Assembly (NCBI RefSeq): GCF_030499535.1 | Contig: NZ_JASTLB010000001.1 | Location: 3,348,001 to 3,412,000, forward strand | Source of the DNA: Streptomyces sp. TG1A-8 | GTDB lineage: Bacteria > Actinomycetota > Actinomycetes > Streptomycetales > Streptomycetaceae | Direction: 5' to 3' | Length of the DNA: 64,000 nt | The notes under the pieces: generated by a model | Seen by the model: the letters and a program-made list of their open reading frames with translations, nothing else | Databases searched by the model: none | Told to the model about the DNA's origin: nothing | Made by a program: the position numbers and the translations under genes | In this document: in pieces, positions 2-14,100 of the stretch | Layout: the number at the start of each line of letters is the position of its first letter | Position numbering within the stretch: position 1 is the first letter of the stretch

Positions 2-979
2 GTCGAGGCGATCACTGAAGACGTGGCGTTCCGCGCGCCCCGGATCTCGGCGGCACTGGACACGCTGTGGCCACATGTCCCGGGTCTGCTCGCCCGGCTG
101 GACGCCCATGCCCAGGGCCTCACCGGGCTGTCCCCGCAGGGCGACGGCCGTTTAGAGACGCGGGTGCAGCGCAGCCGTGGGCGTGAGTTCGCTGACTGGG
201 AGGGCCTGCGCGGCTGGTTCAACGACACCGACGGGCAGGGCAGCCAGGTCGATCAACTGCGGGATGCCACTCTGCGCGCGTTGCAGTCGCTGCTCGCCAA
301 CGCCAAGCGGATGCTGCGGTCGGCCACCGGGGAGATGTCCCGGCGCAAGGACCTGCTGCGGCTGGCCCGGTGGTTCGAGGAAGCGGCGCCGCAGGACGCG
401 CACGACATCGCCGTCGCCGCCTTCGGGCTGTACGGCGCCCGTCATCTGGGCATACCCCCGGCCACCGACAAGGTGGTGCCCGCCTACACGAGCTGGTGGA
501 CCGGGCCGGTGGTTGAAGTGCCGGTGGCCCTGCGGGAAAGGGGCAGCCGCGCCCAGCGTGGCCGGACCGCCACTGTGGAGGACCACTCCGCACAGAAGCA
601 GCGGCTGCGGGAGGCAGCCCGTGAGCGAGCAGCGGCCAGGGCAGCGGCGGCGGACGAACTACGCAGCGCCTCGGGCCACTTCGGCGAGGTGCGCCTCACC
701 TCGGCTGCGCTCGATCTGCTTCTGGAGCTGCTGGCCACCGCACTCGGGAATGCGCAGTTGAGGCGTCGCGCCGGAGCGGGCGCGACGGAATTCGACCTCG
801 ACCAGGCACACAGCGAGGACGCCGAGCTGGGCATCCGGCTCACCGTGCGACGCACGGCGGGCGCCCGGTGCGTCTTGCACTCGGTCGACGGCAACCTGCT
901 GCTGGACAACCTAGAGCTGGACGTCGGCCGCACCTCCTCCGACGCGGCCGACGGCGATGCGGAGGTGAACGTCTCATGA
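2..979 (+). CDS. jetA: Wadjet JetA-type kleisin subunit (TIGR02677/DUF2397), 5' end outside window
   Basis: The reading frame is open from the first bases, so the gene starts upstream; 325 C-terminal residues are visible of a family that is usually about 500. Motifs typical of TIGR02677/DUF2397 are visible, such as SRRKDLLRLARWFEEA, AFGLYGARHLG and a TSWWTGPVVEVPVALR block followed by a basic RGR segment. In Wadjet (MksF/EptF-like) systems this subunit is the kleisin that joins the SMC heads. Its TGA overlaps the ATG of the next gene (ATGA), showing translational coupling. Family assignment comes from motif memory plus the diagnostic gene order. Confidence 0.85.
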   Translation, partial: VEAITEDVAFRAPRISAALDTLWPHVPGLLARLDAHAQGLTGLSPQGDGRLETRVQRSRGREFADWEGLRGWFNDTDGQGSQVDQLRDATLRALQSLLANAKRMLRSATGEMSRRKDLLRLARWFEEAAPQDAHDIAVAAFGLYGARHLGIPPATDKVVPAYTSWWTGPVVEVPVALRERGSRAQRGRTATVEDHSAQKQRLREAARERAAARAAAADELRSASGHFGEVRLTSAALDLLLELLATALGNAQLRRRAGAGATEFDLDQAHSEDAELGIRLTVRRTAGARCVLHSVDGNLLLDNLELDVGRTSSDAADGDAEVNVS

Positions 980-2301
980 CCCTCCCTTCGACACACGACG
1001 TGGCCTTAGCCGCCGAGCGCCGCAGCGCCGCCCGGCTGCTGCTCGCACATCCGCTGGTCACCTCGGACGGCCCGCACGCCGACCTCTTCCCGCTGATCCG
1101 CAGGCATGCCGACTGGCTGGGCAAGCGGTTCCAGCAGGTGCTCGGCTACCGCCTGCTGATCGACAGCTCCTACGCCCGGCTCTTCAAGGCGGGCCTGGGA
1201 GCAGGCGCGGGCCGCCGGCTGGAGCGCTCCACCGGCACCCCCTTCACCCCGCACACCTACGCCTGTCTCGCGCTGGCCCTGTCCGTGCTGGTGACCGCAC
1301 CCGAACAACTGCTGCTGTCGCAGCTGGTGGCCGACATCAGGGCCGCCGCGGCCGACGCGGAGATCGAGCTGGACGAGACGGGTAGGGCTGCCGGGAAACG
1401 GACCTTGGTAGCAGCTCTGCGCCTGCTGGTCGGGTGGGGCGTCCTCATCGAGACCGAGGGCCATGTGGCCGCTCTTGCACAGGATGCGGGCGGAGAGGCT
1501 CTGATCACAGTGGACCGCGAGCTGGCCCGTGTCGTCGTAGCCGGCCCACTCGCCCAGGCCCGTGATGGCGCCGACCTGGTCCGGCGGGCAGCGGACCCGG
1601 GGTTCGGCGGACCTCGCACCTATGTGCGCCGGATGCTCGTCGAGACACCCGTCGTCTACCTTGACGAGCTGACCGACGCCGAACGCGACTGGTTGCGCAC
1701 CCGGCAGCGCCGCGAAGCGCAGGCGTTCTCCGAACTTCTGGGCCTGGAGATGGAGATCCGCGCCGAGGGAGTGGCGCTGGTGGATCCAGAGGACGAGCTG
1801 ACGGACCTGCACCTGCCCGGCACCGGGACGGTCGCGCAGGCCGCGCTCCTGCTGGTGGAACGGCTCGTGGAGCGCCTTCGGCCGCGGGAGCCCGGCCACC
1901 CGGCGACCGGAGGGACGCTCGTCATCGGCGTGGCTGTTCCGGACAGCCTGGTGGACGAGTTGCTGGCCGAACTGGTCGCTGAGTACGGACAGCGCAGCAA
2001 CTGGCAGCGTGACTACCTGGAAGACATCCGCGCCCTGCGGGAGGCCGTGCTGGACCTGCTGGCCCGCATGCGGCTGATGGCCCGGACTGGCCGGCTGCGT
2101 GCCGAGGGCTATGGCCTGCCGGAGGGGTACGCCGATGAGGCACCGGAGGGGCGCACCGTGACCGATGTCCGCGGGGTACGTCCCGGCGGTGACGGCTGGG
2201 TGCTGCTGGCCGCGGCGGCGCGCTACGCCACCCACGTGACCGTGAGCCCGGCCACCGCAGTCGGCAAGGGCACGGATGTTCAAGAGGAGTTGCCGTTGTG
2301 A
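976..2301 (+). CDS. jetB: Wadjet JetB-type subunit (TIGR02678/DUF2398)
   Basis: This 441-aa protein corresponds to the KITE-like accessory subunit that binds the kleisin in MukBEF-like Wadjet complexes. The ATG at 976 is chosen because GGAGGTG lies 8-9 bases upstream and the start overlaps the jetA stop; an upstream in-frame start at 868 would run deep into jetA. DUF2398-like features are an N-terminal AERRSAARLLLAHPLV segment, a central winged-helix-like GRAAGKRTLVAALRLLVGWGVL block, and a TYVRRMLVETPVVYLDEL segment. It is somewhat longer than the roughly 380 aa I remember for the family. The stop overlaps the jetC GTG. Confidence 0.85.
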   Translation: MTLPSTHDVALAAERRSAARLLLAHPLVTSDGPHADLFPLIRRHADWLGKRFQQVLGYRLLIDSSYARLFKAGLGAGAGRRLERSTGTPFTPHTYACLALALSVLVTAPEQLLLSQLVADIRAAAADAEIELDETGRAAGKRTLVAALRLLVGWGVLIETEGHVAALAQDAGGEALITVDRELARVVVAGPLAQARDGADLVRRAADPGFGGPRTYVRRMLVETPVVYLDELTDAERDWLRTRQRREAQAFSELLGLEMEIRAEGVALVDPEDELTDLHLPGTGTVAQAALLLVERLVERLRPREPGHPATGGTLVIGVAVPDSLVDELLAELVAEYGQRSNWQRDYLEDIRALREAVLDLLARMRLMARTGRLRAEGYGLPEGYADEAPEGRTVTDVRGVRPGGDGWVLLAAAARYATHVTVSPATAVGKGTDVQEELPL

Positions 2302-5300
2302 CCACCGATGCGCGTGGCCTCGTCCCGCTGCCGCGTTCCGGCCCCACGACCACCGCCGGCACCCGCTTCCGGCTGCACCGGGCGGGCATCCAGAATGTGT
2401 GGCAGTACGACGAGCAGGAGTTCGCCTTCGGTGACGGACGGTTGCTCCTGCGTGGCAAGAACGGCGCGGGCAAGTCCAAGGCCCTGGAAATGCTGCTCCC
2501 GTATCTGCTGGACGGCGACTCACGGGCGCTGGACGCGACGGGCACCGGCAGGACCACTCTCGCCTGGCTGATGCTGGACGGGTTCGAGCAGACCAACCGT
2601 CTCGGCTACCTGTGGGTGGAGTTCCAGGGCACGACCGACGGCGGCGACCATCGCCACCTCACCCTCGGCGCCGCCATCCGCGCCTCGAAGTCGACGCAGA
2701 AGGCGCTGCCGACGTTCTTCGTCACGCCGCTGCGCGTCGGTGAGGACCTGCACCTAGTCGAGAGCGGAAGGCCCCTGCCGGTCGACCGGCTCAAGGAGAT
2801 CGTCGGCTCCGACAACGTCACTGACCGCGCGGTCGTCCACCGCTCGCGGGTGGCCCGGGAACTGTTCGGCATCACCGACGCGACCCGCTACCGCAACCTC
2901 ACCCAGCTCCTCCACCGGCTGCGGCGGCCCACCGTCGGGGACCGTATCGAGCATGGAGGACTCGCCTCCCTGCTGAGCGAGACCCTGCCGGGACTCGACG
3001 AGGACGTGGTCGAGAAGGTCGCGCGCAACCTCCACGACCTCGACGCCGTACGCGACGAACTCGGCCGCCTGGAGCGCACCGATACGGCGTTGCGCACCTT
3101 CCTCACCAGTTACCGCGGCTACCTGTCCGGTGTCCTGCGCACCTCCGCGCAGGCGGTGAGCCGGGAGCTGGAGATCCTCGCGCAGCGACGCCGGGCGACC
3201 GGAGACGCCGCACAGCGGACCAGCGAGCTGAGGACACAGGAGGAGGAGTCAGAAGCCCGGCTGGAGGCTCTGCGCGAAGAGGAAGAAGCCGCCCGGACCG
3301 ACCTCGCCGCCCTGCATGCCAGCCACGCCTATCGCAGCCTGCGCGAGCTGTCGGAACGCCGCACCACGGTCGAGGCGCTGCACACCGCCGCCGTGGCTGC
3401 CTTCACTGCGCTCAGCAACGCACACGGCGCAGAGGAGGGTGCGGCCGAGCGCCTGTCCGACGGTGTCGACCACCTCGGGAGCCGGCTCGCCGAACTGGGC
3501 ACTGAACACCGGGAACTGCTGACGCAGGCGGAGAAGGCCGGACTTCCCACCGGCCATCTCGGCGAGGCAGTCGCCCTGCCCCGCACGGTTCGCTCCCAGG
3601 CCGGCGAGACGGAGCTGACCGCTCCGGACGGGGAGACGCACATCGTGCAGCACCGGTCGGCCGTCCGTGTGGACACGGCGGCGGTGCAGGACGGACTGCG
3701 GTCATGGCAGGGGCAGCTGGAGGACGCCGAGACGGTCGTGAAGAACCGGACCCGGATGGTCCAGGAGGTGACGCGTCTCACCGCGCAGGCCGAGAAGGCC
3801 CGAAGCCGGGCGGAGCAGGCCGACACCGAGCGGGAACGGTGGGAGGGCGAGGCGGAAGAGGCCGCCGGCCGTCTCGACGCCGGCCGCGAGAAGGTCGCCG
3901 AGGAGAGCGGTGCCTATGCCCGCCAGGTCGCCGAGTGGGTCACCCGCACGCGAGCCGCCGTCGGGTCCGACTGCCTGCCGCTGGATGCCGTCCACGTAGT
4001 GGTTGCCTTCGAGAGCTCCGCCGACGCCGCGTTCGCGGACCGCACGCTCCCGCCCGACACCGACAGCCAGGCGTGGCAGGCCGCCCATGCCGCACTGGAT
4101 CCGTACAGCGAGGAACTCACCAGCCGCCGCGACGCCCTCGCACTCACCGTCGGCCGGCTCGATGAGGAAGTCGGGCACCTGGCGCGTCAGAAGCGTGACT
4201 GGGAGCGACGTACGGATCCCGAGCCGCCGGTCCCCCACCACCGCGTCGCCGAAAGGACACCTGGCACCGGAGCGCCCTTCTACCGGCTGGTGGACTTCGT
4301 GGATGATCTGAGCCACGCGCATCGAGCCGGTCTGGAAGCAGCGCTGGAAGCCAGCGGAATCCTGGACGCGTGGGTCGGTGCAGACGGCGCCCTTGTCGAT
4401 CCCGGCACTCGTGACACTCTGCTCCGTCCAGGCCCCGCGCTGCCGGATGGGGCGACCCTCGCCTCGGCCTTGCGCCCAGCGCCGCAACCGGGGTGTGGAG
4501 TCACGTCCGAGCAGGTGGAACACCTGCTGGCCACTATCGCGCTCGCACCGGCCGAGGAAACGACCGCTCATGACGCGGTGGACTACAACGGAAGCTGGCG
4601 TCTGGGCATCCTCAGCGGCCGGCACCACAAGAGTGACGCCGAGTATGTGGGAGCTGCTGTACGCGCCGAGACCCGACGGCGCATCCTGGCCGAGCTGGAA
4701 CAGCGGCTCACGCAGACGGAGCAGCGGCTGGCTGACGCCCGTCACGAACTCACCGAGGCCGACGCCCGGCGTCGGGCTCTCAGGCTCGCGGAACAGAACT
4801 TCCCCCGGGCACGCGGTCTCGCCGACGCCTGGAGCAGAACCGAGTCGGACGAGAGGAGACTGCGTGACCTGACCGCCAAGGCCACCAGCGCGGCACGGCT
4901 GGCCGAGGAGGCCCGCGCCCTCGCCGTAGCCGCACGCACCGAGGCGGACGCCACCGCCACCGCTCATGACCTGCCTAGCGACCCCGCCGAGCTGGAACGC
5001 GTGCGCACCGCGCTGGCTGCCCTTCTCACCGGCATCGGACATCTTCGCCGAGCGATCGGCAGCACGAGCGAGCGGCTCGGCACCCATCACGCCGATGCCG
5101 AGCGATACGAACGCGCCCGTACAGAACGCCTGGCTGCGGAGGAGAACTACCGGCTTCGCCTCACCGGGCTGCATACCGCGCAACAGGACCTGCGCACCCG
5201 CGAGGAGGCCATCGGGGCGACCGAAGAAGAGATCCTCACCCGCGAGCAGGAAACCAGACAGCGCATCGCGCACGCCGCCCAGGCCCTTCCGGCGGCACAG

Positions 5301-6536
5301 CGGGCCCGCGACGACCTTCATGACCGGCGCGTGCGTGCAGAAGAGGAGGAGAAGCGTCTGCGCGAGAACCTGGCCGCGCAGGAGACGGCGGTCATCGCAA
5401 CCGGCAGCGCACTTCGCGGCGCACTCGGCCGGCCGGAGGTGATGCGCGGCGCCGGGCTGGACCGATCCTCACTGCCCGAGGACGTGGCGGACGATCCCGG
5501 CTCGGGCGTCCGCAGCCGTCTGCGGGCACTGCGGACACTGGCCGACGCCGTGGAACAGGCCCTCGGCCGTCCGAAGGGCGAGGTCTCGGACAGCACCCTG
5601 CTCAACCGGCACACTGAACTGCGCGACCAGCTGGCCGGCGGTTACGACGCGCAACTGGAGGAACGCGACGGGATCAAGGTGTGCCGCCTGATCGACGACC
5701 ACGGCTCCCACGACGTCGCGGCCGTGGGCGAGCGGATCGCCGTCCAGGCGGCAGAGGCCCGAGGACGGCTCACCGAGCGCGAACGTGAGGTGTTCCAGCG
5801 GTTCCTGACCGGCGAGCTCGGCGACCATCTCTCGGCCCAGGTCATCACCGCGGCGAACCTGGTCGCGGCTCTCAACGACACCCTGCGGACCGTACGCACC
5901 TCCCACGGTCTCGGCGTGGAACTGCTGTGGAAGCTGGACGAGGACGTCGACGCGGACGTGCGGGCGGCTGTCGAGCTGCTGCGCAGTCCGTCAAGCCTGC
6001 GCACGCGTGAGCAGACCGAGCAGCTCCGCGAGGTGCTGCAACGCCGGATCGAGGATGCCCGACGGGCCGATCCCTCAGCCGGTTACGCCGCTCATCTGCG
6101 AATCGCGCTCGACTACCGCGACTGGTTCCACTTTCACACCTTCGTGGTCGAGGACGCCGCCCCGGGACGCAGGCGGAAACTGACCGGCCGCACCGGGCTC
6201 AGCCAGGGCGAGCAGCGAGTGCTCTCCTACCTCGTTCTCTTCGCCGCGGCCGCTGCCCACTTCACCAGCCTCGCCGAGTCCGCACCCCACGCCCCCCGGC
6301 TGATCCTCCTGGACGACGCCTTCGCCAAGGTCGACGAACCTACCCACGGGCGGCTGGGACGCATCCTCGTCGACCTCGATCTCGACTTCGTCCTCACCAG
6401 CGAACGGCTCATGGGCAACTGGCCGGAGGTGCCGTCCCTGCACATCTACGAGTGCCTCCGCGATCCCCATGTGCGCGGGGTGGCCACCCTGCACTACACC
6501 TGGAACGGCCGGCACCGGCGCCTGGTGCCCGTATGA
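2298..6536 (+). CDS. jetC: Wadjet JetC-type SMC ATPase (TIGR02680, SbcC/MukB-like)
   Basis: This 1412-aa SMC-like ATPase is the motor subunit. Walker A GKNGAGKS is at residues 53-60, followed by a very long Glu/Arg/Ala-rich coiled coil interrupted by a hinge-like globular region around residues 640-760. The ABC signature LSQGEQ starts near residue 1301, Walker B LILLDDAF near 1335, and an FVLTSERLMGNW segment follows. Known family role: ATP-driven DNA loop extrusion that senses small circular DNA. The GTG start overlaps the jetB stop (GTGA) with AGAGGAG upstream; the stop overlaps the jetD ATG. No catalytic motif looks damaged. Confidence 0.9.
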   Translation: MTTDARGLVPLPRSGPTTTAGTRFRLHRAGIQNVWQYDEQEFAFGDGRLLLRGKNGAGKSKALEMLLPYLLDGDSRALDATGTGRTTLAWLMLDGFEQTNRLGYLWVEFQGTTDGGDHRHLTLGAAIRASKSTQKALPTFFVTPLRVGEDLHLVESGRPLPVDRLKEIVGSDNVTDRAVVHRSRVARELFGITDATRYRNLTQLLHRLRRPTVGDRIEHGGLASLLSETLPGLDEDVVEKVARNLHDLDAVRDELGRLERTDTALRTFLTSYRGYLSGVLRTSAQAVSRELEILAQRRRATGDAAQRTSELRTQEEESEARLEALREEEEAARTDLAALHASHAYRSLRELSERRTTVEALHTAAVAAFTALSNAHGAEEGAAERLSDGVDHLGSRLAELGTEHRELLTQAEKAGLPTGHLGEAVALPRTVRSQAGETELTAPDGETHIVQHRSAVRVDTAAVQDGLRSWQGQLEDAETVVKNRTRMVQEVTRLTAQAEKARSRAEQADTERERWEGEAEEAAGRLDAGREKVAEESGAYARQVAEWVTRTRAAVGSDCLPLDAVHVVVAFESSADAAFADRTLPPDTDSQAWQAAHAALDPYSEELTSRRDALALTVGRLDEEVGHLARQKRDWERRTDPEPPVPHHRVAERTPGTGAPFYRLVDFVDDLSHAHRAGLEAALEASGILDAWVGADGALVDPGTRDTLLRPGPALPDGATLASALRPAPQPGCGVTSEQVEHLLATIALAPAEETTAHDAVDYNGSWRLGILSGRHHKSDAEYVGAAVRAETRRRILAELEQRLTQTEQRLADARHELTEADARRRALRLAEQNFPRARGLADAWSRTESDERRLRDLTAKATSAARLAEEARALAVAARTEADATATAHDLPSDPAELERVRTALAALLTGIGHLRRAIGSTSERLGTHHADAERYERARTERLAAEENYRLRLTGLHTAQQDLRTREEAIGATEEEILTREQETRQRIAHAAQALPAAQRARDDLHDRRVRAEEEEKRLRENLAAQETAVIATGSALRGALGRPEVMRGAGLDRSSLPEDVADDPGSGVRSRLRALRTLADAVEQALGRPKGEVSDSTLLNRHTELRDQLAGGYDAQLEERDGIKVCRLIDDHGSHDVAAVGERIAVQAAEARGRLTEREREVFQRFLTGELGDHLSAQVITAANLVAALNDTLRTVRTSHGLGVELLWKLDEDVDADVRAAVELLRSPSSLRTREQTEQLREVLQRRIEDARRADPSAGYAAHLRIALDYRDWFHFHTFVVEDAAPGRRRKLTGRTGLSQGEQRVLSYLVLFAAAAAHFTSLAESAPHAPRLILLDDAFAKVDEPTHGRLGRILVDLDLDFVLTSERLMGNWPEVPSLHIYECLRDPHVRGVATLHYTWNGRHRRLVPV

Positions 6537-7804
6537 GCAAGCTGCCCGCGGCGACACAGGACTGGCTGGCCGGTCCCGGGCTGACCAGGCTCTGGGAAGC
6601 CGTACGCAAGCGCCTGGAAAGCAACGGCGTGCAGGCCACCGGCTCCCTCCGGCTGACCTCGCTGAGCACCCAGGAACGCAACGACCTGTCGCTCCTGCTG
6701 GGCAAACCCGTCACGGGTGCTGCCGTAACTGTGCGACTCGACGGCCTCGACACGCGGCTGCGCGCCTCGGCGGCCGGACTCGGACTCAGAGAGGTGCTGG
6801 AGGAACTGGGCCCCCCGCTCATCGACCGCCGTGCCGTCCGCGCGGGTACCGCGGCACGGCGCGAGCACGTCTGGTCGTCGCTCGCCTCGGCGCTGGACGC
6901 CTCTCCGCTCGCCGGACAGGACTGGACCGGGCAGTGGTACGACCTGCTGCGCCGCACCGGCGTACCGAGAGGAGTGACACCCGAAACGGCGGTACGCACG
7001 CTTCAGCAGGCAGTGCAGGTCCTCACCGTACTGCTCGGCCCGGAACGGGGTGGCACCCGAGGCCGAGGAGAACTCGCCGCCCTGGCGACCGGGTCCGCAC
7101 ACGGCCTGGACGACGGCACCTGGCTCGCACGTCTCGTCCAACGCGGCATTGCCCTCGCCCACAGCACCGAGTTCCCCGGCGACGCGGCCGGTCGGCGCGC
7201 ACTCTGGCGGCTGGTGTCCGTCACACCGGACGAGGTCTCCAGCACAGTGCTGACCTACGGGCTGCGGCCCATCGGCGGGGGCTGGCGGGAGCAGGCTCTG
7301 AGGCAGCGAGCCGACCATCACGCCGAAGCCCACCTCACCTCCCGGGACCTGCACGACCTGCAACTGCAACTGCCTGCCGGAACAGTGATCCACATCTGTG
7401 AGAACCCACGCGTGGTGGAGGCTGCGGCGGACGCTGCCGGTGTCCACGCCCTGGTGTGCACCTCCGGCAGCGCCGCCACGGTGGTCCTCACACTCCTCGA
7501 CGCCCTCGCCGCCACCGATTGCCGTTTCGCGTATCACGGGGATTTCGACTGGCCGGGCATCGCTCTAGCGAACCGGATCATCCGCCGCTACGGAGCCCGG
7601 CCATGGCGCATGGGCGCCGAGGACTACGAGCACCTGGCCGCTCGCAGCCAGGCCGATGGAATCCCTCAGCTGCCGCTCGACGGGCAGCCCGTCAGCGCGG
7701 CCTGGGACCCGGGTCTCGCCCCCGCGATGACCGCTCTCGGGGTCGCGCTCCATGAGGAGGTCACCCTCGACCTTCTGGTGAACGACTTGTCGGGTCTGGC
7801 GTAA
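6533..7804 (+). CDS. jetD: Wadjet JetD-type nuclease (TIGR02679/DUF2399, toprim fold)
   Basis: This 423-aa protein is the presumed nuclease that cuts the plasmid held by the SMC complex. The C-terminal DUF2399 region shows toprim-type acidic residues: Glu290 in HICENPRVVEAA and Asp337/Asp339 in YHGDFDWPGIALANRI, matching the E...DxD metal site of topoisomerase VI-like nucleases. The N-terminal half resembles the DUF3323-type arm. ATG 6533 overlaps the jetC stop, so all four genes form one coupled operon. The gene ends 172 bp before a tRNA-derived attachment scar, so it is the last gene of the element on this side. Confidence 0.88.
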   Translation: MSKLPAATQDWLAGPGLTRLWEAVRKRLESNGVQATGSLRLTSLSTQERNDLSLLLGKPVTGAAVTVRLDGLDTRLRASAAGLGLREVLEELGPPLIDRRAVRAGTAARREHVWSSLASALDASPLAGQDWTGQWYDLLRRTGVPRGVTPETAVRTLQQAVQVLTVLLGPERGGTRGRGELAALATGSAHGLDDGTWLARLVQRGIALAHSTEFPGDAAGRRALWRLVSVTPDEVSSTVLTYGLRPIGGGWREQALRQRADHHAEAHLTSRDLHDLQLQLPAGTVIHICENPRVVEAAADAAGVHALVCTSGSAATVVLTLLDALAATDCRFAYHGDFDWPGIALANRIIRRYGARPWRMGAEDYEHLAARSQADGIPQLPLDGQPVSAAWDPGLAPAMTALGVALHEEVTLDLLVNDLSGLA

Positions 7805-7851
7805 GGACACCCTGGACACGCGACAAATGCTCAGGGTAGGAGTGCCGGTGC

Positions 7852-7872
7852 TGGGAGCCATCTGGGAGCCAA
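7852..7872 (+). repeat. Paired GGGAGCC repeats left of the att core
   Basis: Two direct copies of TGGGAGCC(A) lie 10 bp apart, about 100 bp left of the tRNA-derived core. The same double motif recurs at 8089-8109 to the right of the core, with an inverted copy at 8121-8129. Short repeats flanking an attachment core are what arm-type integrase binding sites look like; that role is inferred. Confidence 0.5.
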
Positions 7873-7975
7873 CCCGCTCCCCGAGCCCCTTCCCGGCCGC
7901 GCGACACCAACCGAGTCCACTGCTCCGACCTGCGGAGATGCCATCAAGGCTGGCAGTCTCCCCAACCGAACCTCA

Positions 7976-8017
7976 TTCGGGACGAAGAGGTCGTGGGTTC
8001 AAATCCCGCCACCCCGA
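7976..8017 (+). other. attR-like scar: 3' fragment of tRNA-Pro(CGG)
   Basis: The segment carries the 3' side of a tRNA: the anticodon-loop half TTCGGGACGAA, the T-arm GTGGGTTCAAATCCCGC and the acceptor strand CACCCCG with discriminator A. It matches the 3' half of streptomycete tRNA-Pro with anticodon CGG as I remember it; the 5' half (CGGGGTG acceptor strand, D-arm) is absent, so it is not a functional gene. Such 3' duplicates arise when an integrative element inserts into a tRNA gene and restores it at the other end. The orientation places the intact tRNA and the rest of the element upstream, to the left of the window. Confidence 0.85.
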
Positions 8018-8033
8018 CAGAGAAACACCAGGT

Positions 8034-8067
8034 CAGGCCCGGTGCTGAGAAATCAGCACCGGGCCTG
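8034..8067 (+). terminator. Perfect 15-bp hairpin downstream of the tRNA fragment
   Basis: A perfect inverted repeat (arms 8034-8048 and 8053-8067) encloses a GAAA loop, with no U-run, as is common in actinobacteria. It sits 16 bp after the tRNA 3' end, where the native tRNA-Pro terminator would be. This supports the view that the right side of the scar is original chromosome. Confidence 0.75.
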
Positions 8068-8088
8068 GTTCGCTTTGTGTCCCTGATG

Positions 8089-8129
8089 TGGGAGCCATCG
8101 GGGAGCCGACTCCTGGAACCGGCTCCCAG
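8089..8129 (+). repeat. GGGAGCC repeats right of the att core, with an inverted copy
   Basis: TGGGAGCCATCGGGGAGCC repeats the arrangement at 7852-7872 almost exactly, and GGCTCCCAG at 8121-8129 is an inverted copy. The repeats therefore flank the tRNA-derived core on both sides, as in an intact attP or at a junction between two tandem elements. Confidence 0.5.
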
Positions 8130-8163
8130 GGCCCGTCTGTGACGAGCGCGCAGGAGCGTGCGG

Positions 8164-9100
8164 TCAGAGCCAGTCCCAGTGCTTGAAAGCGAAGTACAGC
8201 GTCAGAGAGGCAACGACGATGACGACGCTGGAAACGATGAAACCCCACTGGTGTGCGAAGCCGGGGCAGGGAAGGTTCTGTCCGTAGAAGCCGGTGATCG
8301 CCGTGGGCACGGCGGTGATCGCGGCCCAGCTCGTCACCTTCTTCGTGATCAGGTTCATCCGGCTCGCCTGCACCGACAAGTTGGTCCCCATCACCGGGGC
8401 CACCCGGTCGCGCAGCGACTCCGTCCACTCGCCGGCACGCAACACGTGGTCGTACACGTCTCGGTAGTACGGCAGCAAGGGGCCGTCGACGACGTCGAGG
8501 TCGGGGCGCATGAGGGCGTTGACGACCTCCCGCACGGGCAGGACCACGCGGCGGAACCGGACCGTCCTCGGGCTCGTGGTGTTCCTCGCCGCTCCGGGGC
8601 CCTCCACGGGGACCGTGTGTGCCTGGTGGGTGCCGGCGGTGTCGATGAGGATCTGTACGGCATCGGTGACGTCGTCAGCCCGGACAGCCCTGGCCATCGC
8701 GGCACGGGCGGCCTCGACTGTCGCGTGCGGCGGGACCACGAGAAGAGAGAAGTGGTCCTGGTCGCCCCCAGTGATCAGGACGGTGCCGTCACCCAACGGA
8801 AAGGAGTCGATACGGACGACCTGGTCGCCGATCACCAGGCGCGTGGGAAGTTCATCCCAAGCGGTGGCGTCCAGACCGACGCGCGTGATGGGGCCGAGGT
8901 GCCCGGTCAGCGCGTGGACGGGGCCGGGCAGCTCAGCACCGATGTCGCGGGAACCGGGAACGCGGCCGCCACGCACCGTCGAGGTTGCCTTCCCGGGATC
9001 GTGTCGTCTCCAGCCGCAGAAGGACCGTCCCGGGTTTCGCGGCCCGATGGATCGCGTCCGGCAGGAGCCCGGGGGCACGAGGGGCGTCGGATTCGATCAT
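8164..9100 (-). pseudogene. DUF5994-CorA fusion pseudogene with a 7-bp duplication frameshift
   Basis: Translation from ATG 9100 gives a typical DUF5994 N-terminus (MIESDAPRAPG... GNLDGAWRPRSR), then the frame breaks where CGGGAAC is tandemly duplicated at 8948-8954 and 8955-8961. Removing one copy restores the expected RPRSRDIGAELPG. The downstream frame continues DUF5994 (VVRIDSFPLGDGTVLITG), then runs without a stop into the last 130 or so residues of a CorA-type Mg/Co transporter, with REVVNALMRPDL, TEWTESLRD-like GEWTESLRD, FYGQNLPCPGF and a final transmembrane helix ending KHWDWL. The CorA cytosolic domain is missing, so two genes were fused by deletion and then frameshifted. Confidence 0.85.
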
Positions 9101-9376
9101 GATGTGTCCGCCTGTCCGCGGGATTCGGTACCGCCGCCGACCGCGGGACCTCGTCCTCCCACCGTGAGCCGTGCTTCGCCGCAGCAACCGCGCCGACGGT
9201 CCCGGGCCTCGTTGCCCATCAGTGCAATGCCTGTTCACGCACATGTCCCGGGACCTCCGCAGCGGCGTAGAGTGAAAGCACCGGGAGTACTTCGCACACC
9301 GGCCGCCACGCCGGTGCCGTTCTCGGCGAGCAACAACACCGGCCTCCGCGAGGAGGCTCGGGGACAGGTCCGCGTC

Positions 9377-9937
9377 ATGACCGCGACCATCGAACCCACG
9401 ATCATTCAAGAGCGACTGCTGTCGGCGCCGGCCCGGCTGTCCCTGGCGCCGGCCGGCTCGGTTCCAGGTCTCCTGGACGGTGCCTGGTGGCCCCGCTCCC
9501 GTGATCTCCTCCGCGAGATCCCCACTCTGACGGACGCGCTGGACGCGTGCTGGGGCCGGATCACCCACGTCACCGTGAACCCGACCCACTGGCCCGTCAT
9601 CCCGCGCAAGGTCCCCGTCACGGGGCACACGGTGCGTGTCGGCTGGTTCGCCGCCGAGCAGGACCCGAACAAAGTGATCCTCCTGTCCTACGCGGTGGGC
9701 CGCCTGGACCTGCTGGTGATCCCTCCGCAGACGGACCCGGCCGCCGCCGCCCGGCTGATGGCAGCGGCAACCGTTCCGAGAGGTATCCGCACCGCCGGCG
9801 GTCTGATGGCCGACGAGGCCATCAGCCACGACGCGACAGGTACTCAGATCCGGGAAGAGGAAGGGGAGACCGACGGTGGAGCCGCTTCGACGGCAGGAGC
9901 CGCGACCGGGGTCCTCCGTTCCGCCCTGAGGGGATGA
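9377..9937 (+). CDS. DUF5994 family protein
   Basis: This 186-aa protein shows the DUF5994 core: RLSLAPAG, then LDGAWWPRSRDLLREIPTL, a W-x-RITHVTVNP segment, GHTVRVGWF and a LDLLVIPPQTD block. It is paralogous to the DUF5994 half of the adjacent pseudogene on the opposite strand. Function is unknown; these small proteins are common in Streptomyces, often in several copies. The ATG at 9377 is the only start that fits the domain; the ribosome site is weak. About 35 C-terminal residues are low complexity. A small membrane-protein gene follows 4 bp later. Confidence 0.75.
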   Translation: MTATIEPTIIQERLLSAPARLSLAPAGSVPGLLDGAWWPRSRDLLREIPTLTDALDACWGRITHVTVNPTHWPVIPRKVPVTGHTVRVGWFAAEQDPNKVILLSYAVGRLDLLVIPPQTDPAAAARLMAAATVPRGIRTAGGLMADEAISHDATGTQIREEEGETDGGAASTAGAATGVLRSALRG

Positions 9938-9941
9938 AGAC

Positions 9942-10166
9942 GTGGAAACGGCCGTCACCGTTGCCGTGATCCTCTTCGTGATCGTCGCGGGCATGTTCCT
10001 GATCCACCGGCTCAACGTGCAGCACGCCGAGAGGATCGGGGCGTTCCGCTACAGCGATGCCCTGCCGGGAATCCGTCAGCGGACCCGTAAGGGCCCGGGC
10101 GCCACCGTGTCGAACGGCCCTCCGGCCGACACCACACGTCGTGAGCACCGACAGGGGGGCCGCTGA
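9942..10166 (+). CDS. Small single-pass membrane protein, hypothetical
   Basis: A 74-aa protein from GTG 9942, preceded by GGGGATGAAG at a suitable distance and 4 bp after the DUF5994 stop. Residues 4-21 form one hydrophobic helix (VTVAVILFVIVAGMFLIH) followed by a basic cytosolic tail. I recognise no domain. Tight spacing suggests cotranscription with the DUF5994 gene. Confidence 0.55.
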   Translation: METAVTVAVILFVIVAGMFLIHRLNVQHAERIGAFRYSDALPGIRQRTRKGPGATVSNGPPADTTRREHRQGGR

Positions 10167-10270
10167 TGCCGCAGACCTGCTTCCAGTCGGGGTGGGTGTG
10201 AGGCGACGGCCGTCACGCCCATCGGCACGTCGCCCCCGCTGCACGACTTCCTGCAGGAGCAAGGGACACC

Positions 10271-10708
10271 GTGAAGTCACCGGAACCGCCGTCAGCCGGG
10301 CACGCGGAGGTCCGTGTCGTCGCCGCGGACCCGGAGGCGGCTCGCCAGGTCACGGAGGTTCTCCGGCGTTGTTTCGCCACCACCGGGGCGCGCGGCTACC
10401 CCGCATCCACCGACGGCGGAACACGCCTCCACCTCACCGTGGACACCACGCGCATGGCGGAGGCGGTGCGTACCTGGCTGTTGACCAGCCAGTCCTCCCG
10501 GGACGGTCACCCACACCCGGACGAAATCCGGGAGACGGGCCTCGGTGGGAGAAGGACGCTGCCCCAGACGTACGGGTTTCCGTCGGTGCCGCACGAGAGG
10601 CGGCGACCGGAGGAACCCCAGGCACTGGAACGGCGGGCCGGCAAGCCCGTGGGCGAAGCCGGTGCGCCGGTCGCGGGCGCAGGAGGAGTTGCGGCCCGGA
10701 CAGCATGA
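10271..10708 (+). CDS. Hypothetical protein
   Basis: This 145-aa product starts at GTG 10271 with AGGAG about 13 bases upstream. The first 80 residues look like a real small alpha/beta protein (VRVVAADPEAARQVTEVLRR, then GTRLHLTVDTTRMAEAV); the remainder is charged and low complexity and may be frame drift or disorder. I do not recognise the family. It lies between the DUF5994 pair and the HNH endonuclease in the accessory zone. Confidence 0.5.
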   Translation: MKSPEPPSAGHAEVRVVAADPEAARQVTEVLRRCFATTGARGYPASTDGGTRLHLTVDTTRMAEAVRTWLLTSQSSRDGHPHPDEIRETGLGGRRTLPQTYGFPSVPHERRRPEEPQALERRAGKPVGEAGAPVAGAGGVAARTA

Positions 10709-10739
10709 TGTGCGGCCAAGCATCACTACGATCACGGTC

Positions 10740-11633
10740 ATGGATTGGCTGGAGCGTGCCGCGAAGCTGAGGCAGTGGAGTCGGGATGGTGCGCGGGCGC
10801 CGCACAAGCCGTTGCTGCTGCTGTACGCGCTGGGCCGTTTTCAGGCGGATGCCGCGGACGAGCTGCCGTACAGCGCGGTGGAGTCGGATCTGAAGAAACT
10901 GCTGGTGGAGTACGGTCCGCCGCGCGGGACCACGCCCGCCTACCCCTTCCACCATCTGGTCAGCGACGGGGTGTGGGAAGTGCGGACCGAGCACGGCGCT
11001 GGCAGCCCGGGCACCGGGGTGCGGGAACTACGGGCCAGCCGGGCCACCGGGCGGCTGGCGCCGGACCTTCAGGTGGCGCTCCGGCGGGAACCGTCGCTGT
11101 TGGGCCGCATGGCAAGGGTGCTGCTGGATCTGCACTTCCCGGCGTCGCTGCACCAGGACCTGTGCGACGCGGTGGGCCTGGAACCGGAACTGGCGGAGAC
11201 CAACGCTCCGGCAGCGCCCGAGAGGCGGCAGCGGGACCGCCGGATGCGGGAGGTGGTGCTGACCGCGTACGAGTACCAGTGCGCCTTCTGCGGTTACGAC
11301 GGCATGATCGGCACGGCGCCCGTGGGGTTGGAGGCGGCACACGTGCGCTGGTGGGCGTTCGACGGCCCGGACGACGTCGACAACGGACTGTGCCTGTGCT
11401 CGCTGCACCACAAACTCCTCGACAAGGGCGTCCTCGGCATAGGTGACGGCCACCGCATCCTGGTCTCGCAGCGATTCACCGGTCGCAGCCAGATTGCCCG
11501 CGAGCATGTGACGGCGCTCGCGGGCCGTCCGCTCATAGGCCCCCAACCCGGCATCCCGCCCATTGCGGCAGCCCACCGCTCCTGGCACACCAGCCAGGTC
11601 TTCCACGGCAGCCCCCGCCCGACGGCCGCCTGA
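10740..11633 (+). CDS. Phosphorothioated-DNA-binding HNH restriction endonuclease (McrA-like, type IV)
   Basis: This 297-aa protein has an N-terminal sulfur-binding-domain signature (residues 1-60: DWLERAAKLRQW, then RAPHKPLLLLYALGRF) and a C-terminal HNH nuclease: CAFC at 181-184, LEAAHVRWW with His201, then DNGLCLCSLHHKLLDKG with Asn215 and His223/224. This matches the ScoMcrA/SprMcrA type, which cuts foreign DNA bearing phosphorothioate (Dnd) modification. The start at ATG 10740 is placed at the conserved MDWLERA; upstream in-frame residues are not family-like. It adds a second anti-invader function close to the Wadjet operon. A host carrying it should lack Dnd modification at its target sites. 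Confidence 0.85.
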   Translation: MDWLERAAKLRQWSRDGARAPHKPLLLLYALGRFQADAADELPYSAVESDLKKLLVEYGPPRGTTPAYPFHHLVSDGVWEVRTEHGAGSPGTGVRELRASRATGRLAPDLQVALRREPSLLGRMARVLLDLHFPASLHQDLCDAVGLEPELAETNAPAAPERRQRDRRMREVVLTAYEYQCAFCGYDGMIGTAPVGLEAAHVRWWAFDGPDDVDNGLCLCSLHHKLLDKGVLGIGDGHRILVSQRFTGRSQIAREHVTALAGRPLIGPQPGIPPIAAAHRSWHTSQVFHGSPRPTAA

Positions 11634-11865
11634 CCCGGTGTTCAGCGCGGGACGTCAAGGGCGGGGTGCACCTAGCAGCCCCGATCGCTCCTCATGTTGC
11701 TTCAAACGCGCGTGCGTGATCCGGTCCGTCGCCCCGGGCAACGCTCCACCTCCCGCCCCGTCGAGGTGCAGGAGGCCACGCACGTGTGGAAAGGGCCTCG
11801 GCCGGAAAACGGTCGAGGCCCCCCACCGCATCGCGTGCACCCCCGTCACCGGCTGTTTCACCGCT
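11634..11865. other. Short non-coding stretch
   Basis: I see no credible gene in these 232 bp. It separates the HNH gene from a truncated regulator and is probably where the 5' part of that regulator was lost. Confidence 0.4.
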
Positions 11866-12346
11866 TCACGGCGCGCTGGTTCTCGACGAGGCGGTGCTCA
11901 GGCGTCCCATCGGTGGCCAGGTGGTGATGCGTGAGCAGTTGGCGCGGCTGCTGAGGACCACGGAGGAGCCGCACACCACCGTGCAGGTACTGCCGTTCCA
12001 CCAGGGCGAGCACGATGTCATGGGCGGCTCGCTCACGGTGCTCACCATGCCGGACGGCTCGGAGACCGCTTACACGGAGGGCGCGCACTACGGCCAACTC
12101 ATCGAGGATCCGGACGAGGTGGGGAGTTTCGCGCTGACCTACGATCGGCTGCGGGCGGCAGCCCTGCCCCCGCTCATGCCGCTCGACGTGATCCGATCCG
12201 TGATGGAGGACAACCACCGTGGAGCGAAGGTCCCGTCCCGATCCGACCGGCGCCGCCTGACGCAAGAGCAGTTACAGCAATCAGGAGGGGGGCGACTGCG
12301 CGGAGGTGGCCGACGGGTTCCGAGGGGCCGTCGTCCCCGTCCGTGA
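11866..12346 (+). pseudogene. C-terminal fragment of an XRE/DUF5753 regulator
   Basis: The translated segment matches only the C-terminal half of DUF5753 proteins: LVLDEAVLRRPIGG, REQLARLL, TVQVLPFHQGEH, FALTYDRLRAAALPP. The N-terminal helix-turn-helix (about 130 residues) is absent, and the sequence before about 11866 is unrelated. Intact DUF5753 regulators are about 280 aa and pair with a downstream DUF397 gene, which is present here but also broken. The fragment is open to 12346, overlapping the DUF397 remnant in another frame. Confidence 0.8.
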
Positions 12347-12440
12347 CAGCAAGGTCCCGCACGGTCCGGCGCTGTGCTTCGAAGCCGCCGTCTGGGCCGC
12401 CTTCATAGGCGGGTTGAAGGCCGGGCACCACCGTCCCTGA
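12219..12440 (+). pseudogene. DUF397 gene with an in-frame TGA replacing Trp
   Basis: From GTG 12219 the frame reads MERRSRPDPTGAA, stop, then RKSSYSNQEGGDCAEVADGF and VPVRDSKVPHGPALCF to a final TGA at 12438. In the DUF397 family the residue before RKSSYS is Trp, so TGA at 12258-12260 is best read as TGG changed to TGA. The remaining 59 codons are intact. DUF397 proteins are small partners of XRE/DUF5753 regulators (bldB/whiJ-like systems). Both members of this pair are disabled. Confidence 0.82.
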
Positions 12441-12722
12441 AGCGGCCGGACGCCGGCCCCCGGCCGTCTTCCGGGCGCACCGGGTCCTTGTCCGCGAGGA
12501 CCCGGCGAGCCGCTGACCTCCTGAAAGAACCGGGGGACAGAACCACCCGCCCACCCACCCTCCCCCGCGAGGAAGCCTGCGCCACCCGTCCGGGTGACCG
12601 GCTTGCAGGTCCGGGACGCGGACGGTTACGTTCGCCGCGACAACCGCACACAGACGACGGCCCCCGGCCGGGACTGGCATCCCGATCGAGGGCCTGACCG
12701 ATCAGGAAGAACGCACTTCCCG

Positions 12723-13310
12723 ATGGCTGACCCGCAGTCTAACGCGCGCCTGCGCGCCGGCGCCGGAGCTCCGACCTCCGGCGTGATCCACGTCCGCACC
12801 CGGCTGAGGCCGACTTCACCGTGATCTCCAACGCCCTCGCCCAGCGGCGCGGCAGCGCGGTCACGGTGGGCGTCGCGGCGTACATCTCCTCCCCGCCCGA
12901 CGGCTCCCCGTGAGCATCGCCGCCCTGTGCGAGCACTTCAGCGAGGGCGAGATCCTCATCTCACGAGCGCTCAGGGAGCTCGAAGCGGCCGGGTACCTGG
13001 AGCGCCGCCGCGAGCGAACGCCCACCGGGCAGGTCCGCACCCGGACGTACTTCCACGACGTTCCCGCGGCGGCGCGGACCCGGACGGCCCGCCGAATCCG
13101 CCGAAGCCGCACCGGCCCCGCAAGCCGTCCGCAACCGAGAACGCGACGCCCACCACTGAAGCGGGCCCCGGGGATCTGCGCAGAGCCCGGGACGGTCAGG
13201 CCCCCTCCACGAGGTGGTACCCGACTACCGGTGGAAGCTGCTGCGGACGCTGGTCGCGTCCGGCCCGTCTACGAACGCCACGGAACCAGGACGTGTCCGG
13301 CGGACCGTGA
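12723..13310 (+). pseudogene. Winged-helix (replication/transcription-type) gene broken by three frameshifts
   Basis: A single family-like protein is spread over three frames. From ATG 12723 it reads MADPQSNARLRAGAGAPTSG then VIHVRTR; the frame shifts near 12812 to DFTVISNALAQRRGSAVTVGVAAYIS; it shifts again at 12906-12911, where one G seems lost (DGSP then VSIAALCEHF), to a winged-helix SEGEILISRALRELEAAGYLE block. A third shift near 13065 leads to a PPNPPKPHRPRKPSATENA-like tail. The C-terminal part is lost. The gene is unusable as it stands. Confidence 0.75.
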
Positions 13311-13404
13311 CGACTCCCGTGCGGGACGTGCTGCGCCCCGCGAGGACGGGGCAACCGCCTGACTACGATGTCCCACGCCTGCACAGGGCGGCGGGAGGGG
13401 AGAC

Positions 13405-13899
13405 ATGGGCGAGAGGACCAATGGTCCGGCTGCCGGAAGGGGAAGCGCCGGGACTTCGCATTCGGCCCTGCGGCACCTTGGCGCCATGCATCTGAGCGGG
13501 GCCGTACTCCTGCTCACGTTCTTGGTGCCCCCGTGGTGGATGCTGGACTTCGGCTATGCGACCTCGCCAGGCGATCCCACTGCGGATGCCCCCTTCGCCC
13601 TCCTCCTCGCCGTGCCGCTGGCATGCGCGAGTCTCCATGTGACGGTGCAGGTCCCGGCTGGGCTTTTGGGAGCCTGGCTGGGCAGGGGCCGCACGGCACC
13701 CGTCAGGTACGGGAGCGCAGTCGTAGCGGCGGGCGCACTGAGTTCGCTCCTCTTCTGGAGCCTGGGGTGGAATGCCGGGGGCAGCGTTTTGCCAGCATGG
13801 GCTGACGCGATGGTGCGAGTATCGATTGGTCTGGCCGGGCACATGTGGGTCATGCGGGTGCGGCCCGGATCCGCGCAGCACGACGAGGCACTGTCCTGA
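13405..13899 (+). CDS. Four-helix membrane protein, hypothetical
   Basis: This 164-aa protein starts at ATG 13405 behind GGGAGGGGAG. Four hydrophobic stretches are visible: around residues 27-43 (AMHLSGAVLLLTFLVPP), 64-84 (PFALLLAVPLACASL), 103-122 (GSAVVAAGALSSLLFWSLG) and 134-150. No motif points to a function. It lies between degraded genes, but its own frame looks intact with normal codon use. Confidence 0.6.
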   Translation: MGERTNGPAAGRGSAGTSHSALRHLGAMHLSGAVLLLTFLVPPWWMLDFGYATSPGDPTADAPFALLLAVPLACASLHVTVQVPAGLLGAWLGRGRTAPVRYGSAVVAAGALSSLLFWSLGWNAGGSVLPAWADAMVRVSIGLAGHMWVMRVRPGSAQHDEALS

Positions 13900-13914
13900 G
13901 GATCACGGTCTGAG

Positions 13915-14100
13915 TCATAGGCGGACCGCTGCTGCGGTGACGGTGCCGGGGAAGACGTGGGCCGGTTTGTCGTAACGGGTTGCGACGGCGCGGAAGTTCT
14001 TGAGTCGGTTGGTGGTTCGCTCGACCTCGTTGCGACGCCGGCAGCGGTCGCGATCGAAGCCGGTGGGCCTGCCGCCGTACTGCCTTTGCGTCGACGGTTG
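13915..14100 (-). mobile_element. IS5-family transposase, C-terminal remnant
   Basis: On the minus strand the frame reads YGGRPTGFDRDRCRRRNEVE, then RLKNFRAVATRYDK and GTVTAAAVRL-stop. This is the characteristic end of IS5-type (IS1647/IS112-like) Streptomyces transposases, including the last catalytic-domain Glu in RNEVE. The upstream two thirds and any inverted repeats are not recognisable. It marks the border between the degraded zone and the core genes from 14.27 kb. Confidence 0.8.

Follow-up and report, generated by a model that had tools for sequence, protein, structure and literature searches.

Type II Wadjet operon as the probable right-end module of an integrative, probably mobilizable element in a tRNA-Pro(CGG) gene of Streptomyces

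The window, that is, the whole stretch of 64,000 nucleotides analysed here, covers positions 3348001 to 3412000 of contig C1 of the soil bacterium Streptomyces sp. TG1A-8, whose 7.66-Mb genome is assembled in four contigs (this genome is referred to as G000, compared genomes by other G-numbers and jet loci by L-numbers). At its left edge lie four forward-strand genes that encode the components of a Wadjet system: JetA, a kleisin (DUF2397) open at the window edge, of which the C-terminal 325 of 548 amino acids fall within window 2..979; JetB, a KITE protein of 441 amino acids (DUF2398; 976..2301), assigned by profile match; JetC, an SMC ATPase of 1412 amino acids (TIGR02680; 2298..6536), assigned by profile match and motifs; and JetD, a Toprim nuclease of 423 amino acids (DUF3323 and DUF2399; 6533..7804), assigned by profile match and alignment. 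The full JetA frame starts at C1:3347333, 668 bp to the left of the window. The three junctions are 4-bp overlaps (ATGA between jetA and jetB, then GTGA and ATGA), and these ORF coordinates bear out the four fully coupled genes described in the initial annotation. The protein identities given there (kleisin, KITE, 1412-residue SMC protein and toprim nuclease) agree with the NCBIfam, Pfam and PADLOC matches. When the profiles TIGR02677 to TIGR02680 proposed for comparison were searched against the window ORFs, TIGR02678, TIGR02679 and TIGR02680 scored above their curated cut-offs, whereas TIGR02677 reached 114 bits against a cut-off of 165.85 on the JetA fragment that the window holds; the full-length JetA is spanned by Pfam DUF2397. 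In these profile scans JetB was taken as a longer ORF (868-2301), as was JetD (6452-7804).

The catalytic motifs are intact, as first stated. JetC contains GKNGAGKS, LSQGEQR and LILLDDAF, which we take to be the Walker A, signature and Walker B motifs, and JetD contains CENPRV and HGDFDWPG, with residues E290, D337 and D339 unchanged in all 11 aligned JetD sequences. The match of JetD to the Toprim nuclease fold is carried by its C-terminal half and says little about the N-terminal half, and structure comparison with Foldseek returned low TM-scores (0.31/0.35 for 8b7f). Searches of PDB sequences with JetB and with the JetD alignment gave no match, and a search with the single JetD sequence gave matches at chance level only.

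Each of JetA, JetB, JetC and JetD has its best PADLOC match in a type II model, and the operon lineage is Wadjet type II, with JetA2, JetB2, JetC2 and JetD2 in one operon. The label of type III, given to the DUF2397/2398/2399 lineage in the initial annotation, is rejected here, as no type III model was among the matches to a library that presumably includes such models. Characterised Wadjet systems are described as extruding circular DNA by JetABC and cutting it by JetD, with a size cut-off quoted, in the extract available, at about 50-100 kb (PMC12287153). The remark that experiments have centred on other types holds in that Wadjet research has dealt mostly with type I, according to the accessible part of a 2023 review (PMC10586767), but a type II complex from Neobacillus vireti, nvJET, has already been purified and put through assays; it is reported to cut naked circular DNA, and a paper on its structure is cited (PMC12647877, as excerpted). 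JetC and JetA match PDB entry 9qe0, which we infer to be nvJET. The operon studied here resembles nvJET in its four families and gene order and differs in belonging to an actinobacterial lineage and lying on a tRNA-Pro(CGG) element. A survey found Wadjet enriched at the ends of Streptomyces chromosomes (PMC10482375, in the passages available), whereas the present copy has a roughly central position on a contig of 7.1 Mb.

An intact tRNA-Pro(CGG) gene lies outside the window at C1:3293517-3293591, and a 43-bp copy of its 3′ end, designated attR, is found by sequence match at window 7976..8018 on the forward strand; around this copy 65 bp match the 3′ end of the intact gene at 94%. The duplicated tRNA-Pro 3′ end beyond the operon is thus confirmed, though the JetD stop codon is separated from it by 171 bp and not by 172 bp as first given. 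Measured from where the tRNA ends to where the copy ends, the distance is 62,427 bp (62.4 kb). The DNA in between, flanked by direct repeats from the tRNA 3′ end, has a GC content of 0.698, lower than the 0.728 of the left flank and the 0.741 of window 18400-64000. No third copy was found with up to 12 mismatches in 43 positions on either strand of the 92 kb around the island and of the window, so the copy at attR is not a chance match; genome-wide, among the 40 of 88 candidates that were scored, one further match was seen, in a tRNA-Pro(TGG) gene. The search to the left of the window therefore found the intact tRNA-Pro(CGG) gene 62.4 kb away with element genes in between, and the initial annotation's view of a tRNA-Pro-integrated element with the operon as its last cargo stands: recombinase and mobilization genes lie to the left, and the jet genes directly precede attR. 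The comparison with a genome lacking the element agrees with this view. In the related genome G058 the site is nearly empty, with left core genes from among g007-g018 followed by the tRNA and then by right core genes; it has no JetD match at E <= 1e-20 and no second tRNA copy in the 32 kb read.

Read from left to right, the element encodes a 1438-residue helicase with a restriction-endonuclease-like domain, a DUF4145-like and a PDC-S60-like protein, the tyrosine recombinase on the reverse strand, MobC/NikA and a MobA/VirD2-type relaxase. These are followed by mixed cargo that includes a JmjC protein, an FAD oxidoreductase, a methyltransferase, a 2′-5′ RNA ligase-like protein and a beta-lactamase-fold serine hydrolase, and then by BrxHI, BrxD, PglZ, PglY/BrxC, PglX, PDC-M28A, a ParA-like ATPase, PDC-M28C, PglW and JetABCD. 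The BREX type 2 set is complete, comprising PglW, PglX, PglY/BrxC, PglZ, BrxD and BrxHI, the six genes that we take to define membership. It shares these six genes with known BREX type 2 (Pgl) systems and differs in adjoining Wadjet on one element and in holding PDC-M28 candidate genes between PglX and PglW. The latter, the candidate defence genes PDC-M28A and PDC-M28C together with the ParA-like gene, occupy C1:3339259-3342658 within the BREX-2 cluster and are seen in this genome and in G071. The helicase near the left end (C1:3295086-3299402), whose endonuclease-like domain is of the MTES_1575 type, has an 87% identical relative 3.3 kb after JetD in locus L082.

With a relaxase and its accessory protein MobC present, the gene content is that of an integrative and probably mobilizable element. 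Self-transfer is not supported, since no type IV secretion gene was found among the scanned cargo proteins, a scan in which several small ORFs lay outside the Pfam set and PglY was covered by PADLOC only. Taken together, the operon is very probably a type II Wadjet system that serves as the right-end module of an integrative, probably mobilizable element, 62.4 kb long, in tRNA-Pro(CGG).

The element resembles integrative and mobilizable elements and defence islands in its recombinase, MobC, relaxase and tRNA 3′ end target, and exchangeable defence cargo is common to both. It is set apart from known tRNA-hotspot islands by its site, a Streptomyces tRNA-Pro(CGG) gene, and by a recombinase with a LacI-type HTH insert, and its family by a Wadjet operon found repeatedly on the tRNA strand and often ahead of the right-hand copy. 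A preference for one hotspot is reported for E. coli elements that carry Wadjet and Zorya (PMC10121019, in the part available). Streptomyces AICEs are described, in the available part of the source, as using tRNA targets, accreting in tandem and including defective elements, with an FtsK-type TraB as their mark (PMC9513070). A 14-kb element in G055 uses the integrase family of the present element. Unlike AICEs, for which the criterion was an FtsK-type TraB together with a replication protein of the RepSA, RepAM or Prim-Pol families, the present element has a MobA/VirD2-type relaxase with MobC, and neither an FtsK-type TraB nor any of these replication proteins was among its Pfam-scanned cargo proteins. 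No description of the family was found in the titles and abstract openings of the matches listed from the open-licence literature; the systems it carries are known, and the element family is apparently undescribed.

The recombinase (C1:3301933-3303186, reverse strand) was identified as a tyrosine recombinase by Pfam on the protein; its catalytic region is interrupted by a LacI-type HTH. A PF00589 search of the genome had given 21 matches, none of them in the island, and the recombinase stayed under the cut-off at 21.4 versus 27.1 bits, probably because of this insert, which, as judged by eye, all 12 fully read relatives retain. R, HxxR, H and Y, which we take to be the catalytic residues, were seen by eye, yet the frame extends over 417 amino acids and the N-terminal domain lies upstream in another frame. 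In all three close relatives compared the integrase gene is open throughout; with its N-terminal domain out of frame, the element is probably stranded in its own genome unless the assembly is in error.

This out-of-frame integrase would fit a decayed or silent cargo with no current function for the operon, as would in-frame stops in the JetC translations of 8 of 80 jet loci (some of these perhaps due to indels between alignment pieces) and a split JetD in G046. Against it, the four jet genes of the present operon are full length and coupled and have kept their motifs, and we regard such a loss of function as very unlikely.

At E <= 1e-60 the integrase has matches in 15 of 61 genus genomes, counting G000, and sorting by hand placed 14 of the 15 on the tRNA contig, within about 23 kb of the tRNA and all antisense to it, the exception being G011. 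Near the ends of the element lie paired repeats that we propose as integrase arm sites: a right-end pair GGGAGCC-N4-GGGAGCC at window 7853..7870 on the forward strand, and a second pair like that of the left end, preceded by a hairpin, to the right of attR at 8090..8107 (forward strand). One forward pair GGGAGCC-N3to5-GGGAGCC is found near each end in G000, G071, G086 and G083; G000 and G071 share the extra pair right of attR, G086 and G083 an extra reverse pair near the left end, and no such pair was found elsewhere in the stretches read or in G058. By eye, the end repeats fall into two main classes, GCC and GAA-like (16 elements at the left end, 13 at both ends, with only half of the left pair seen in G043). 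The left and right classes agree in 12 of 13 elements, and G060 is set apart as a third, weakly matching type. The 17 integrase columns that separate the classes lie mostly in residues 9-52 (14), the remaining 3 at the C-terminal end and none in the LacI insert; a role of this insert in reading the end repeats is thus not supported. This count rests on 12 full integrases, G057, G043 and G060 not among them, and Fisher's p of 1.3e-11 assumes an independence that related species lack. Since its relatives lie near the same tRNA in other genomes and the N-terminal domain covaries with the end repeats, the recombinase is likely the integrase for the tRNA-Pro(CGG) site. On our reading, an N-terminal arm-binding domain would be exchanged together with its DNA sites, the paired end repeats being the predicted binding sites, with the tRNA-recognising part held constant.

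Three Streptomyces relatives (G071, G086 and G083) share a common order of tRNA, integrase, conserved genes, relaxase, further genes, JetABCD and tRNA copy, with mobility genes to the left, Wadjet at or near the right end and a central defence cargo that is partly different. Their tRNA copies lie 63.7, 62.6 and 67.3 kb apart, respectively, and JetD is followed by the copy at 3.0, 0.16 and 5.6 kb. Among the proteins scanned, the middle of G086 holds type I restriction-modification and a QatC-like protein and that of G083 DpdE- and DrmMI-like proteins, and G071 has BREX-2 and PDC-M28 in common with the present element. Between G000 and G071, DNA identity is 88-93% for JetA-D and 89-94% for the five BREX genes that align end to end, with 93.1% over 44% for PglX, 80.4% for M28A and 89.5% for the integrase; the relaxase (81.5%), g025 and g033 stand at 80-82%, and the core genes g017 and g018 at 82-83%. 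As the jet and BREX identities exceed those of the core, and relaxase, g025 and g033 are no closer than the core, these values suggest that the defence block moved between lineages, alone or by exchange between elements; with the relaxase no closer than the core, a recent transfer of the whole element is without support.

To the right of attR, GC values of 0.69-0.71 persist as far as about window 14000, and the core is again syntenic with G058 from about window 18400 onward. Given its left-end-like DNA, its low GC and the late return of core synteny, the stretch after attR is probably an older neighbouring element or remnant, with the pair at 8090..8107 as its left end. Window 8018-14000 is lower in GC and non-core, and includes a CorA/DUF5994 gene at 8164-9078 on the reverse strand; between about 18400 and 21200, core DNA with, by eye, S9 peptidase and SURF1-like genes is inverted relative to G058 and adjoins collinear genes on the lysC side. 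The left-end-like DNA right of attR in both G000 and G071, the lower GC up to about window 14000 and relatives with several tRNA copies in a row raise the question of whether the island is a composite of at least two elements or modules stacked or recombined at the tRNA, with a Wadjet operon of other origin than the left integrase. The identities between G000 and G071, which differ between jet and most BREX genes (88-94%) and relaxase, g025 and g033 (80-82%), likewise indicate that modules of the island have different histories. Such a composite is nevertheless unlikely: the 62.4 kb contain neither a third tRNA copy, even with 12 mismatches allowed in 43 positions, nor an additional repeat pair, and the same left and right modules stand together in three other genomes. 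Viewed as a hotspot, the tRNA site shows a distance to lysC of 8.9 to 94.9 kb (median 27.4), with 12 kb or less in 6 of 41 genomes; in the other 20 of the 61, lysC went unmatched, the two genes lay on different contigs or their order was rearranged, as sorted by hand.

The association of Wadjet with this tRNA was followed in 80 JetD relatives, the best of 155 from named records and mostly from Streptomyces. A tRNA-Pro(CGG) copy with at most 3 mismatches lies within 10 kb of 25 of the 80 loci, always on the jet strand (0 of 80 have an opposite-strand copy within 10 kb), after JetD in 15 and before JetA in 10. Linkage is found in 24 of 57 loci at JetD identities of at least 69% versus 1 of 23 below, and, in loci with full flanks, in 20 of 42 versus 1 of 18. 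In a survey of 28 genomes (L045-L072, the first 28 of the best 80 loci), JetD and a copy share one contig and strand within 65 kb in 16, against about 0.8 expected at random from 51 tRNA copies (52 on recount, with the same value) under an assumption of independence that is absent among related species; none has a copy on the opposite strand of a shared contig. A 17th genome, G077, carries a partial copy of 26 bp, 164 bp past JetD, and 11 of these 28 close jet loci have no tRNA copy on the same contig, 4 of the 11 lying within about 13 kb of a contig end. In four loci (L078, L082, L085 and L089) the jet genes directly follow an intact tRNA-Pro, and an extra tRNA (Cys GCA/Trp CCA) lies on the opposite strand about 1-3 kb past JetD.

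In a JetC tree of 64 rows, built by a quick method with no bootstrap and leaving out 17 of the 80 loci (8 for an in-frame stop within the stretch translated, 9 for JetC coverage below 90%), all tRNA-linked rows fall inside one 47-row clade. The side of the tRNA switches at least 5 times, yet the labels are more clustered than in most shuffles (22 and 11 of 500 were as low). A separate 13-row Streptomyces clade (L095-L099, L101, L104-L108, L111 and L112; about 60-64% JetD identity) has no tRNA-Pro(CGG) copy within the flanking DNA examined.

The confinement of all tRNA-linked rows, deep branches included, to the 47-row clade, the clustered position labels and an operon placed 0.3-2.6 kb past a tRNA or copy in 10 of the 25 loci would also suit an operon that is an old vertical resident of the tRNA-Pro(CGG) neighbourhood in Streptomycetaceae, flanked by mobile elements by chance. 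We consider this quite unlikely, as the operon lies between two tRNA copies with an integrase in G000, G071, G086 and G083, the tRNA side changes at least 5 times on the tree (quick method, no bootstrap), and the jet and five BREX genes of G000 and G071 are 88-94% identical in DNA against 82-83% for core g017 and g018. JetD at 80% identity or more, moreover, occurs in only 2 of 61 genus genomes, G000 and G029, which are also the only two among the 15 integrase genomes and carry it inside the island. Seen from the side of the element, Wadjet is rare, which counts against carriage of the operon as element cargo, though this remains the preferred reading.

By analogy with characterised Wadjet systems, the complex would load on circular DNA and extrude it, with JetD cutting at the end of extrusion, and incoming plasmids and rivals excised as circles would be lost as a result; the predicted anti-plasmid activity of the operon rests on the same analogy. 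An element with BREX type 2 and Wadjet would thus protect its host, and thereby itself, from phages and plasmids. Unless some other integrase can work on its ends, the element is probably locked into its present position in its own genome. A further reading, which we hold to be doubtful, is that Wadjet serves as the competition arm of tRNA-Pro(CGG) elements, destroying plasmids and the excised circles of rivals at the same tRNA but sparing the element's own circle. If so, that circle (62-67 kb in the four elements compared) would escape through its size, a short-lived excised state or the timing of expression. The conserved strand of jetABCD and its frequent location at the end would then reflect function, with the central defence module being exchangeable.

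These observations place a little-studied Wadjet type on a definable element family, together with its ends, its integrase classes, a near-empty site and open-integrase relatives. With these in hand, it can now be tested how an element that encodes a destroyer of circular DNA survives its own circular stage, its 62.4 kb lying within the cut-off of 50-100 kb quoted in the extract of PMC12287153. The answer would bear on how readily Streptomyces strains with such elements take up plasmids.
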